Below are positions 4,294 to 54,202 of a DNA stretch of 64,000 nt, one piece after another; position 1 is the stretch's first letter; each line of letters starts with the position of its first letter. This DNA is from Desulfuromonas sp. AOP6 (GTDB lineage: Bacteria; Desulfobacterota; Desulfuromonadia; Desulfuromonadales; SZUA-540), in the NCBI RefSeq assembly GCF_009731355.2, contig NZ_AP022810.1, positions 1,702,001 through 1,766,000 of the forward strand, written 5' to 3'. The position numbers were made by a program, and so were the translations under genes. Under the pieces are notes generated by a model, which had not been told where the DNA came from, ran no database searches, and worked only from the letters and a program-made list of their open reading frames with translations.

Positions 4294-4809
4294 CTAAAAA
4301 GTCAGTAGACTGAAAACTTTATCCTCCGGAAGTTTCTTGCGTCCTTCCAGAAAAGCCAATTCAGCCATGAAAGCGCACTCTATTACCTCGGCTCCCAATT
4401 CAGTCACCAGGTCATAAACGGCCACCATAGTTCCGCCAGTAGCGAGCAGGTCGTCGGCAATAATGACCCGGTCGCCTTCCTTGAAAGCATCTTCATGGAT
4501 CTCCAGCATATCGGATCCATACTCTAGCTGATAGCTCTTACCACGAGTTTTATAGGGAAGCTTCCCGGGCTTACGAACCAGTGTGACGCCAGCCCCAAGC
4601 TTATAAGCCAGGGCAGATCCCAGAACAAAACCCCTCGCCTCGACACCGACGACCTTGTCAATACGCTGACCGATGTAACGATGAGCGATCAGATCCACCA
4701 TGCGGTGAAAGCTTCTTCCGTCTGAAAGAAGCGTTGTTATATCCTTGAAAACAATTCCCTTCTTGGGAAAATCCTGAACATCCCTGATAATGTTTTTCAA
4801 CTCGTCCAA
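4294..4809 (-). CDS. apt: Adenine phosphoribosyltransferase
   Basis: Salvages adenine with PRPP to AMP in the cytosol. The 171-residue product begins [19 protein letters not shown] and has the PRPP-binding loop [15 protein letters not shown] and EARGFVLG. The start is a TTG at 4809: GAGGGAG lies 8 nt upstream and the resulting length is the family norm. A GTG at 4848 would add 13 residues of no family character. It lies just downstream of rpoS (50 nt), so it may be read from the same transcript, and tRNA-Arg follows. Confidence 0.95.
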
Positions 4810-4859
4810 AATACGGGCTCCCTCTTTTAAAAAGACATCACACTGCACACGACAAGAAC

Positions 4860-13570: not shown

Positions 13571-13675
13571 ATTCTACTCCTTCTAGTGGTGAAATGAGCG
13601 GTTTCCCGCTGCCGGATCTGAAGGGGGAGACAATTTCCCCTCAGTTCACGGTCTTGAGCCGATAATGACCTGTGC

Positions 13676-13947: not shown

Positions 13948-14466
13948 TTATTGCTTCTTATGGGGTGATAACACCATGGTCATAAAACGTCCAGCCATGC
14001 GCGGCGACATTTCAATCACAGCTATATCCTTGACTTCCTCGGCAATACGATCCATCAAAGCTCTGCCGAATTCCGGATGAGTCACCTCGCGCCCCCTAAA
14101 CATGACAGTCACTTTGACTTTATTCCCGTCATCGAGAAATCGCCGGGCATTCTTGGCCTTGAACTGGAAATCGTGGTCTTCTGTCTTGGGCCGCATTTTG
14201 ACTTCTTTTGTTTCTACTTTTGCGGTTTTTTTCTTGGCTTCTGCCGCCCTTTTACTTGCTTGATATTTATATTTGCCATAATCCATGATCCGGCAAACGG
14301 GAGGTACGGCGTTGGGTGACACCTCAACCAGGTCAAGGCCACGTGCAGTGGCGGCGCCCAGGGCCTCCTCAAGGCTCAATATACCGAGCTGTTCGCCCTC
14401 ATCGTCAACAACCCGGACTTCTCTTGCTCGAATGGCACGATTGATATTGGTCTCTTGCTTAGCTAT
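13948..14466 (-). CDS. infC: Translation initiation factor IF-3, ATA start
   Basis: 172 residues. The N-terminal domain reads NINRAIRAREVRVVDDEGEQLGIL and the C-terminal domain includes KMRPKTEDHDFQFKAKNARRFL and EMSPRMAGRFM. No ATG, GTG or TTG lies where the protein should start: the codon after AGGAGG (7-nt spacer) is ATA at 14466, followed by GCTAAG, giving the usual (M)AK N-terminus. A rare start is the known basis of IF-3 autocontrol in enterobacteria, where the codon is AUU. An in-frame ATG at 14496 lies inside the thrS 3' end with no SD. The SD overlaps the thrS stop codon, so the two genes are tightly coupled. Confidence 0.95.
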   Translation of the reverse strand: MAKQETNINRAIRAREVRVVDDEGEQLGILSLEEALGAATARGLDLVEVSPNAVPPVCRIMDYGKYKYQASKRAAEAKKKTAKVETKEVKMRPKTEDHDFQFKAKNARRFLDDGNKVKVTVMFRGREVTHPEFGRALMDRIAEEVKDIAVIEMSPRMAGRFMTMVLSPHKKQ

Positions 14467-45797: not shown

Positions 45798-46607
45798 CTA
45801 TACCTTCGGCAGGTTGTTTTTCAAGGGCACGGTACACGGGGTCTGGTCACCATACCACACCTCCATGAGACAAAGACCATGCGGAGGTGCCGTTTTGCCC
45901 GCGTTCACCCGGCTGCCATGCTTCAAGAGAAGGGGCACATTTTCACTAGGTCGCTTGCCTAACCCGACCTCAACCAAGGTGCCCACTATAATGCGGACCA
46001 TGAACTTCAGGAATCCCCCTCCCCTCACATCGAGATAGAGCAAAGGGCCGTCCTGAACGATGTCGATGGAAAAAATTTCACGGACAGTCGTTTTGGCGGA
46101 ACAGTTGGACGCTCGGAAAGCGGTAAAATCATGTCGTCCGACCAGAAAAGAAGCTGCTTTCTCCATAGCTTGCAGATCGAGCGGCTTCTTGATTGTCCAA
46201 CAGGCGTGACGATTGATCGCTGTGCGTACAGGCGAAAGGTTCAGGGTATAGCGATACCATTTACCTTGGCTATCAAAGCGCGGGTGGAAGTCGAGGGGGA
46301 CAATGTTGGCCTGTCGAATGACGACATCTTCCGGGAGATAACGATTGAGCCCGTCACGAAAGGCTTGCTCGGGAAGCCCCCTTGACGTCCTGAAGCAGGC
46401 TACCATCCCGAATGCATGCACGCCGGCGTCGGTACGACCGGAAGAAACCAACCGCACAGAGTGCCCGAGCAAGGACAAGAGCGCCTCTTCGACAACCTGC
46501 TGAACGGCTATCCCGTTGGGCTGCACTTGCCAGCCCGCATAACGTGTACCGTCATACTCGATAACAAGCCTCACCTGTTTTTCAGACCCATCCAACCGTG
46601 CAGGCAT
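45798..46607 (-). CDS. truA: tRNA pseudouridine(38-40) synthase
   Basis: About 269 residues. Catalytic Asp in SSGRTDAGVHAFGMVACF, IEYDGTRYAGWQVQPNGIAVQ, and the C-terminal RIIVGTLVEVGLGKR. Modifies the anticodon arm of tRNAs. The start is uncertain: ATG 46607 or 46616; a frame up to 46667 would swallow the hairpin following usg. usg-truA is the same pair as in the E. coli pdxB-usg-truA-dedA region. Confidence 0.95.
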   Translation of the reverse strand: MPARLDGSEKQVRLVIEYDGTRYAGWQVQPNGIAVQQVVEEALLSLLGHSVRLVSSGRTDAGVHAFGMVACFRTSRGLPEQAFRDGLNRYLPEDVVIRQANIVPLDFHPRFDSQGKWYRYTLNLSPVRTAINRHACWTIKKPLDLQAMEKAASFLVGRHDFTAFRASNCSAKTTVREIFSIDIVQDGPLLYLDVRGGGFLKFMVRIIVGTLVEVGLGKRPSENVPLLLKHGSRVNAGKTAPPHGLCLMEVWYGDQTPCTVPLKNNLPKV

Positions 46608-46628
46608 ACTTCCCATCGTTCCTAAAAC

Positions 46629-46656
46629 GAGGAGAGGGGACCGCTGGCCCCCTCTC
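46629..46656 (-). terminator. Hairpin between usg and truA
   Basis: Minus strand GAGAGGGG and CCCCTCTC arms (8 bp, about 10-nt loop) followed by CTCGTTTTAG. Likely a weak terminator or attenuator. Confidence 0.45.
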
Positions 46657-46682
46657 GATTCATACATCGCACTTAATCCAGT

Positions 46683-47702
46683 TTAAAGATACTTATCTAA
46701 CAGCAATTCGGCAATCTGGACCGCATTCGTTGCAGCGCCCTTGCGGAGATTGTCTGATACGAGCCACATATTCAACGCGGAGTCAGCCGAATCATCAGCC
46801 CGGATACGCCCAACAAAGATGGAGTCCTGGCCAACAGCATCACTCATCGTTGGGCAAGCTCCCTGGCCAGCATCATCAAAAATGGTCAACCCAGGTGATT
46901 GAGCCATAAGTTCTCGCGCCCTGCCGGGGTCGATGTAATCAGCCAGTTCGACATTAACCGTTGCACTGCATCCATAAAAAACCGGCACGGTAACACTGGT
47001 GGCGGTGATCTGAAGATTGGGAGAAGCCAGGATTTTGCGAGTTTCCCGAGCAATGTTCATCTCCTCAAGGGTATAACCATTGGGCATAAAGACATCGCTG
47101 TGTGACAAACAGTTAAACGCAATCTGACGAGGGAATACCTTGCCCTCTGCCGGTCGGCCATTGAGTAGTTCGCCGGACTGGACCCTGAGTTCATCAACGC
47201 CCCTGGTGCCAACCGCGGAAACCGCACGATAAGTGGACACTACGACTCTCTTGATGCCACATAAGGCCTGTAAAGGCTTCAGCGCCATAACAAGAGGGAC
47301 AGTGGAGCTGTCAGGACAAGCCACAATCCTTTTTTGACGGAACAGTTCCAGATCCTGAGGGTTGACCTCTGGGACCACCACGGGAACCTCGTCATCCATC
47401 CCCCAGTAGCCACTAACATCGATACACAGGGCACCAACTGCTGCCGCGGATGGACAAAATTCCATGCAAAGTCTCGGACTGACAGCAAAAAAAACTATAT
47501 CCGTGCCAGAAAAAGAGTCTGCTGACAGGGTCTCGACCACGATTGGCTTTCCCCTATATTCAAGAATCTCTCCCGCACTGGCTTCGCTGGCCATAAAGCG
47601 TATCGATTCAACCGGGAAATCCCGTTCTTCGAGAATCTCTACGAGCTGAGAACCAACGGCACCCGTAGCGCCGACAATGGCTATGTTCCACTTTTTGTTG
47701 AT
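46683..47702 (-). CDS. usg: USG-1-like protein: Asd homologue without catalytic Cys, ATC start
   Basis: 339 residues if started at the ATC at 47702: (M)NKKWNIAIVGATGAVGSQLVEILEER, the Rossmann N-terminus found in Asd/USG-1. Between the upstream in-frame TAA (47717) and the first ATG (47594) there is no ATG, GTG or TTG, and the ATC has AAGGGGG 7 nt upstream. In the active-site loop Asd has NPNCST, but this protein has CPDSST, so the nucleophilic Cys is Ser, as in E. coli USG-1 (VPDSLT). It also sits next to truA as usg does in E. coli. I therefore call it usg rather than a second Asd. Function unknown. Confidence 0.9.
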   Translation of the reverse strand: MNKKWNIAIVGATGAVGSQLVEILEERDFPVESIRFMASEASAGEILEYRGKPIVVETLSADSFSGTDIVFFAVSPRLCMEFCPSAAAVGALCIDVSGYWGMDDEVPVVVPEVNPQDLELFRQKRIVACPDSSTVPLVMALKPLQALCGIKRVVVSTYRAVSAVGTRGVDELRVQSGELLNGRPAEGKVFPRQIAFNCLSHSDVFMPNGYTLEEMNIARETRKILASPNLQITATSVTVPVFYGCSATVNVELADYIDPGRARELMAQSPGLTIFDDAGQGACPTMSDAVGQDSIFVGRIRADDSADSALNMWLVSDNLRKGAATNAVQIAELLLDKYL

Positions 47703-47749
47703 AAGCGTTCCCCCTTATGGGAAAAATCAATCTATTTTCGGAGCTTGAA

Positions 47750-48847
47750 TTACTGCTCGCGAAGGATGCGAAGCATACGCCGCAGCGGTTCCGCCGCTCC
47801 CCACAACAGTTGGTCGCCGCAAGTAAAAGCCGACAGGTACTGGGGCCCCATCTTCATTTTGCGCAGGCGACCGACCGGTATGGACAACGTTCCAGAAACA
47901 GCCGTCGGCGTCAACTGCGCCAGGGAGTCAGCCTTGGTGTTGGGCACCAGTTTGACCCACTCATTGTCGTTCTGGATCATCGCTTCGATATCAGCCATAG
48001 GCACATCCTTGTTCAGCCTAATCGTCAGGGCCTGGCTGTGGCAACGCATGGCACCCACGCGAACACAGATGCCGTCAATGGCAATGGGCTGTTTGGTACC
48101 CAGAATCTTATTGGTTTCTGCATACCCTTTCCATTCTTCGCGGCTTTGCCCATCCTCCACCTCACGGTCAATCCAGGGAAGAAGACTGCCGGCCAAAGGA
48201 TAGCCGAACTCCTTGGTAGGCAGTGTGCCATCACGCAAAGCCGAAGTTACCTTACGGTCAATGTCAAGAATGGCAGAGGCCGGATCCTGAAGCAAAGGGG
48301 CAACGGTGCCATGGAGGGCACCCATCTGGCTGAGCAATTCACGCATATTGGGTGCGCCTGCGCCAGAGGCAGCCTGATAGGTCATGGAGGTCAACCAATC
48401 GACCAGACCGGCACGAAATAGCCCCCCCAGCGCCATCAGCATGAGACTGACGGTGCAGTTACCTCCAATAAAATCTTTCTGTCCGTTAGCCAGGGCCTTG
48501 CCGATGACTTGCCGGTTGACCGGGTCCAGGATAATAACGGCATCTTTTTCCATACGCAGACTACTGGCCGCATCGATCCAGTAGCCCTTCCAGCCAGCTT
48601 GCCGCAATTGGGGGTGCACGGCTTTAGTATAGTCTCCACCCTGACAGGTCAGAATGACATCGAGCTTTTTGAGTTCATCGATATCATCTGCGTCTTTCAG
48701 AGATCCAGCCCCCAAAGGAGCAGGTGCTCCCGCCTGGGAGGTAGAGAAGAAAACGGGCTCGATGCCGGAGAAATCATCCTCCTCCTGCATGCGCTGCATA
48801 AGGACCGAGCCGACCATGCCACGCCAACCGATAAGACCGACTTTCAT
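47750..48847 (-). CDS. asd: Aspartate-semialdehyde dehydrogenase (E. coli type)
   Basis: 365 residues, [20 protein letters not shown] (cofactor), catalytic Cys in [19 protein letters not shown], and substrate-binding [16 protein letters not shown]. Reduces aspartyl phosphate to aspartate semialdehyde, feeding Lys, DAP, Thr and Met. It is the active paralogue of the pair asd-usg. AAGGA precedes the ATG. Between leuB and usg. Confidence 0.97.
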
Positions 48848-53942: not shown

Positions 53943-53978
53943 AAAAAAAGCTCCCGCCCCAATTGCAGGGGCGAGAGC
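53943..53978 (-). terminator. T-box terminator of the leuA leader
   Basis: Minus strand GCTCTCGCCCC (53978-53968) and GGGGCGGGAGC (53960-53950), one wobble pair, 7-nt loop, followed by TTTTTTT. The alternative fold is the T-box antiterminator. Confidence 0.9.
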
Positions 53979-54202
53979 CTTGGCTTCGCGGTACCACCCT
54001 GTTTCGATCTTCCGAAGAAGACCCTTCTTTGGCCCTTTACGCGGGCTGACGGCGATGGCTATCTCTCGAAATCGAAAGAGCTTCACCAACGCGGCTCCAA
54101 GGCGAGTTCGACTTTCCACAGTACCGGTTTGCAGCAACCACCGGCTCTCTGAAACTGGGGATTAAGTCTACTACTCCTTTTCGACGCCTTTGTTTGATAT
54201 GA
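53943..54202 (-). promoter_or_regulatory. Leucine T-box riboswitch of leuA
   Basis: Read 5' to 3' on the minus strand: AGAGAG at 54150-54145 (stem I), specifier segment GAACTCG with CTC at 54106-54104 (Leu), the T-box AGGGTGGTACCGCG at 54000-53987, and a terminator GCTCTCGCCCC / GGGGCGGGAGC then TTTTTTT (53978-53943). TGGT in the T-box bulge matches a tRNA ending ACCA. Uncharged tRNA-Leu should favour the antiterminator. The leader begins near 54202 under the promoter at 54209-54237. Confidence 0.93.

Follow-up and report, generated by a model that had tools for sequence, protein, structure and literature searches.

A probable ATC start codon on usg, a gene for a putatively non-catalytic Asd paralogue, in Desulfuromonas sp. 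AOP6

Background

Where does translation of usg begin in Desulfuromonas sp. AOP6? In the stretch of 64,000 nt that we analysed (hereafter the window; contig NZ_AP022810.1, positions 1,702,001 to 1,766,000), the reading frame of this gene offers no canonical start codon at the point where the protein is expected to begin, and the codon found there is ATC. A preliminary description of the window had proposed ATC as the start, and had added that, together with an ATA start on infC, this would put two rare starts in one 34-kb span, both possibly tuned by the level of IF3.

AUC and AUU pair fully with the initiator anticodon at two positions only. IF3 is reported to reject weak third-position pairs (PMC10158994), and the autoregulation of infC via a rare start is described as established (PMC5472188). 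Non-AUG starts are reported to go with stronger Shine-Dalgarno (SD) motifs, and the same source gives one reconstruction in which 1 of 61,358 ancestral AUG starts became AUU (PMC5622118), so that starts of the AUH type count as very rare. For S. aureus, AUA and AUU starts are reported to yield about 10% of the AUG output in poor medium and, for one gene with such a start, up to 30% in rich medium (PMC13009471).

Methods

Three genomes of the genus were compared: that of strain AOP6 (G000), that of a congener (G001) and a third one that is 78% complete (G002). For the start column of usg in the order we read 58 of the 63 match rows with E ≤ 1e-30, of which 57 were readable (L026 has Ns); three genomes are represented by two rows, and some of the more distant rows are perhaps not orthologues. 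The active-site comparison was based on 38 aligned usg loci (the genus pair and 36 other relatives), and the usg tree on 31 of these 38 sequences.

For the start scan we considered 631 reciprocal pairs, aligned over 80 residues or more and including some antisense ORFs, from 864 kb of G000 (26% of the genome) and 880 kb of G001. The scan set ATH starts (ATA, ATC or ATT) against ATG, GTG and TTG. We considered as a candidate any pair in which a conserved ATH codon with an SD stood ahead of every conserved canonical codon. For cdsA, 58 loci of the class were read, the last 20 of them picked outside the order and mostly one per genus; 199 of 200 class genomes have a match.

Results

The usg gene, on the minus strand at 46683..47702 from ATC to TAA, encodes an Asd-like protein of 339 aa with the Pfam domains PF01118 and PF02774. 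Read on the minus strand from 47717, the start region is TAA GGG GGA ACG CTT ATC AAC AAA AAG TGG AAC ATA GCC ATT GTC GGC, in which the in-frame TAA (47715..47717) bounds the region and the proposed start codon ATC (47700..47702) is placed by the reading frame and by the alignment with the congener. The SD, AAGGGGG (47710..47716, minus strand), lies 7 nt 5′ of ATC, and its duplex with the anti-SD reaches −9.9 kcal/mol (−8.0 in G001) against a median of −6.6; the best conserved canonical start reaches −9.9 in 14.9% of 606 gene pairs. After the TAA, the earliest ATG, GTG or TTG in frame is the ATG at 47592..47594, which is codon 37 counted from ATC.

The residues encoded before this ATG, WNIAIVGATGAVG, make up the Rossmann strand with its glycine loop, and this segment aligns with relatives and with solved structures (PDB 2qz9/2gyy). 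In fact, the alignment of usg to 2qz9, a solved ASADH, begins at usg residue 3 (E 3.5e-90). The preliminary description had stated that no ATG, GTG or TTG stands between the TAA and the ATG, that the missing Rossmann N-terminus is nevertheless encoded there and that ATC sits at the expected codon with AAGGGGG 7 nt upstream; the reading of the frame bore out the first point, relatives and structures agreed with the second, and the third held as well, with correct coordinates.

In the congener G001 the same column reads TAA AGG AGA GGA CTT ATT, with AAGGAG 7 nt 5′ of ATT and the frame closed by a TAA five codons before it, and the earliest canonical codon after the ATT column is a GTG at codon 34. 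These two genomes are the sole carriers of usg in the genus set, and both have the ATH start; G002 showed no match to usg, infC, cdsA or asd_gamma and therefore tests nothing. Judged from these sequences, usg very probably initiates at ATC.

A weak hairpin (47708..47725, minus strand) is able to cover the SD, which may be partly folded in G000. The fold at the start differs between the congeners (z −1.29 in G000, z −0.70 in G001), so that a conserved RNA structure was rejected and the hairpin is probably due to chance.

By profile search, usg passes the cut-off of asd_B (TIGR01296; 352.1 bits, cut-off 324.2), that of PRK14874 and that of the related PRK05671 (305.2 bits, cut-off 284). It misses the cut-off of the Usg equivalog PRK08040 (260.1 bits, cut-off 273) and, because of this, should not be placed in that equivalog. 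It is also nearer to ASADH entries (2qz9, 3.5e-90) than to the USG-1 homologue 2hjs (1.4e-55), a member of the Asd family whose catalytic-motif residues are likewise unlike those of ASADH. At the columns that we take to hold the catalytic Cys, Gln, Arg and His of Asd, both congeners have Ser, Arg, Thr and Cys, respectively (motifs PDSST, TYR/VLR, TVPV/TVPI and GCS). These replacements point to a non-catalytic protein of the Asd family, not to be called an active ASADH; automatic annotation would label it an active enzyme, since the asd_B cut-off is passed despite the loss of residues.

Among the 36 other relatives aligned, the catalytic Cys is retained in 26 and absent in 10, one of which (G040) is altered at all four catalytic residues. 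The relatives without Cys are L009 (G018), L024, L025 and L027-L033; nine start with ATG and one, L009, with a weak TTG. The idea that catalytic loss causes a weak start is unsupported, because these 10 of 36 relatives start canonically. In the tree, support for the genus pair is 100/100 and its stem measures 1.38, the median end branch being 0.18. Resolution along the backbone is poor, and the pair is not alone in having a long branch (3.59 for the f19 pair). The most parsimonious placement for both the start switch and the active-site loss would be the stem of the genus.

A gene on a long stem that has lost its active site could also be a pseudogene, decaying, hardly translated and devoid of any start. 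The divergence of usg goes some way in this direction: its pN of 0.146 is the 27th highest among 494 gene pairs, its pN/pS of 0.24 is the 50th highest (median 0.12), and the proteins of G000 and G001 share 248 of 339 residues (73%) beside an asd neighbour that is 95% identical. We consider decay improbable, however, as the two proteins align without gap or stop and at full length in both species, pN/pS stays at 0.24, and the SD is retained with different letters in G000 and G001. Thus usg evolves faster than most genes and is nevertheless constrained.

Slightly less probable still is translation from the downstream ATG at 47594, with the upstream segment untranslated. It is the first canonical codon, and a default gene caller would probably pick it; an annotation made in this way would remove 36 residues of usg, and with them the Rossmann strand and the glycine loop. 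This ATG is CTG in G001, and thus not a conserved start, and has a poor SD (−2.4 kcal/mol). Moreover, the segment ahead of it carries substitutions of the coding type: the 26 differences between G000 and G001 in codons 2-36 are distributed as 6, 2 and 18 over codon positions 1, 2 and 3, and the third-position excess (18/26) has p=2e-4. This pattern indicates that the segment behind ATC evolves as coding sequence.

A single C/G miscall, with ATG as the true codon, would produce the same picture in G000. A look at the codon in a sister strain had been suggested as a check, and G001, separately assembled and at 73% protein identity, turned out to have ATT in this column, also a non-canonical codon. 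Two independent errors in one codon being very unlikely, a sequencing or assembly error is effectively excluded.

Initiation one or two codons earlier, at CTT or ACG, or reinitiation following asd without a defined codon, is about as improbable as such an error, for although the CTT before ATH is common to both congeners and in both the end of asd lies some 45 nt upstream, ACG is GGA in G001, CTT lies only 4 nt from the SD and is to our knowledge not among the usual start codons, and asd and usg do not overlap. The upstream neighbour is an asd of the E. coli type (asd_gamma; 47750..48847, minus strand), which has the GGNCTV active-site motif. A fusion or frameshift joining asd and usg was ruled out, since an in-frame TAA separates them in both congeners. 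Downstream of usg lies an ORF that we take to be a truA-like gene (45798..46667, minus strand), which would match the usg-truA order of E. coli.

We also considered how rare such starts are. Among the 57 readable usg-like loci of the order, 53 have ATG, 1 TTG, 1 GTG and 2 ATH, the latter both in this genus; in the 20 more distant ones among these loci an ATG lies at most 7 codons from the start column. Since the other 55 readable loci are canonical, the weak start is a feature of this genus.

In the scan of the genus pair, the automatic rule returned 26 of the 631 pairs, and on reading them through usg and cdsA were the clear cases. The remaining rows had an ATG, GTG or TTG directly behind or near the ATH codon, or were apparently antisense or internal ORFs. 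A second rule caught infC, upstream of whose ATA lies a poorly placed in-frame ATG. In two of the 26 pairs a conserved ATH is followed by TTG as the very next codon, one gene being Pth-like (G000 2300697-2301281) and the other Apt-like (G000 1706297-1706824, i.e. 4297-4824 of the window), both presumed names; their start is ambiguous and TTG is preferred. A general looseness of start choice was not seen in the 631 pairs scanned, most of the 26 candidates dissolving on reading, and rare starts are few among them.

The infC gene (13948..14466, minus strand) starts with ATA at 14466-14464, behind AGGAGGTGA, as supported by the sequence and by relatives. All of the 30 infC loci read have an ATH start (ATA in 26, ATC in 4). 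The two rare starts in one 34-kb span of the preliminary description are thus borne out, ATA on infC and, very probably, ATC on usg, but the link with infC weighs little by itself, because ATA or ATC is the rule on infC here. Two RNA elements also lie on the minus strand of the window: an L20-Deltaproteobacteria ribosomal-protein leader (13577-13653) downstream of infC, and a T-box leader, matched as an RNA family (53964-54193), upstream of genes that we take to be of the leucine-pathway type.

The other clear case of the scan, cdsA (CDP-diglyceride synthetase), lies on the minus strand just past the window edge (L078:75-875, i.e. 64075-64875). It has ATT at L078 875-873, behind AAGGAGG, and overlaps the stop of an uppS-like gene as ATTAA. 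In all 58 class loci read the start column is ATH (ATT 33, ATC 21, ATA 4), and ATG was not seen there. Precisely, the 33 loci of the order have ATT in 29, ATC in 3 and ATA in 1, and the 25 class loci outside the order have ATC in 18, ATT in 4 and ATA in 3. Forty of the 58 have no in-frame ATG, GTG or TTG after the upstream stop and before the ATH codon, and in 9 the upstream stop is at most 5 codons away. A canonical codon occurs at most 10 codons upstream in 14 of the 58, and for these a different start is possible, though in most cases the position of the SD favours the ATH codon. The 21 loci read from outside the class all have a canonical codon at most four codons from the column, and cdsA of E. 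coli K-12 starts with TTG. A literature search found no report of a non-canonical cdsA start. The case of cdsA is wider and older than that of usg, and it supports the latter, because ATH starts in this lineage are evidently not confined to infC.

Discussion

The most probable reading, to which we assign a probability of about 0.87, is that usg encodes a full-length, non-catalytic Asd paralogue kept at low output by an AUC or AUU start that is combined with a good SD and probably screened by IF3. The AUC codon (AUU in the sister species) would be read by the initiator tRNA and give fMet, initiation would be enabled by the good SD at a favourable distance, and the poor codon-anticodon match, against which IF3 screens, would hold the output low. 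As far as the sequences go, neither congener offers a canonical start, both keep AUH at the same column and both have lost the catalytic residues. Like other genes with AUH starts, usg has no canonical alternative, keeps AUH within the genus and has a good SD; outside the genus AUH is not kept at this column (55/55 canonical). From this we infer that initiation takes place exactly at the AUH codon and that the start changed on the genus stem. Initiation of usg is probably low, SD-driven and sensitive to IF3. Its control by IF3 is likely by analogy, because of the precedents of infC, pcnB and sigR in the literature.

The nearest of these precedents are infC and pcnB of E. coli, with AUU (PMC9410913), in which, as in usg, AUH replaces AUG; for infC, discrimination by IF3 is known. 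The difference is that usg is a paralogue of a metabolic enzyme without a feedback loop on IF3. A non-canonical start that is conserved and preceded by a strong SD is also described for ccpN of S. aureus and B. subtilis and for cvfC1 of S. aureus (AUA, AUU), with a reduced output measured for them in the same report (PMC13009471). The ccpN start is kept across genera and on a regulator, whereas that of usg is restricted to a genus and sits on a pseudo-enzyme. In Streptomyces, the GTC start of the IF3-repressed sigR is reported to make of a rare start a translational brake acting through IF3 (PMC5472188); its codon differs from that of usg, and the brake was demonstrated for sigR, while for usg it is a proposal. 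In Listeria, an ATT start of infC and an ATC start of rnhC are reported as confirmed, the latter codon being that of usg, and ATA and ATT mutants of rsbW are described, with the reporter order ATG > ATA > ATT (PMC13068326); these cases concern other genes in another phylum. The kind is therefore already known from infC, pcnB and ccpN, and it is as members of it that usg and cdsA look new.

More tentatively, and with rather less than even odds, the class may possess a small group of genes under IF3 control by way of non-AUG starts, comprising infC, cdsA and, in this genus, usg, in which the poor start would be kept by selection. The ATH column of cdsA bears both on IF3 control beyond its own gene and on whether selection can keep a poor start class-wide. 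The usg gene would be an example from nature of expression lowered through the start codon itself, in which a genus-level switch has affected a paralogue that has apparently also lost catalysis. If the group under IF3 control is real, the synthesis of phospholipid precursors would depend on the level of IF3 and, with it, on the state of the translation machinery.
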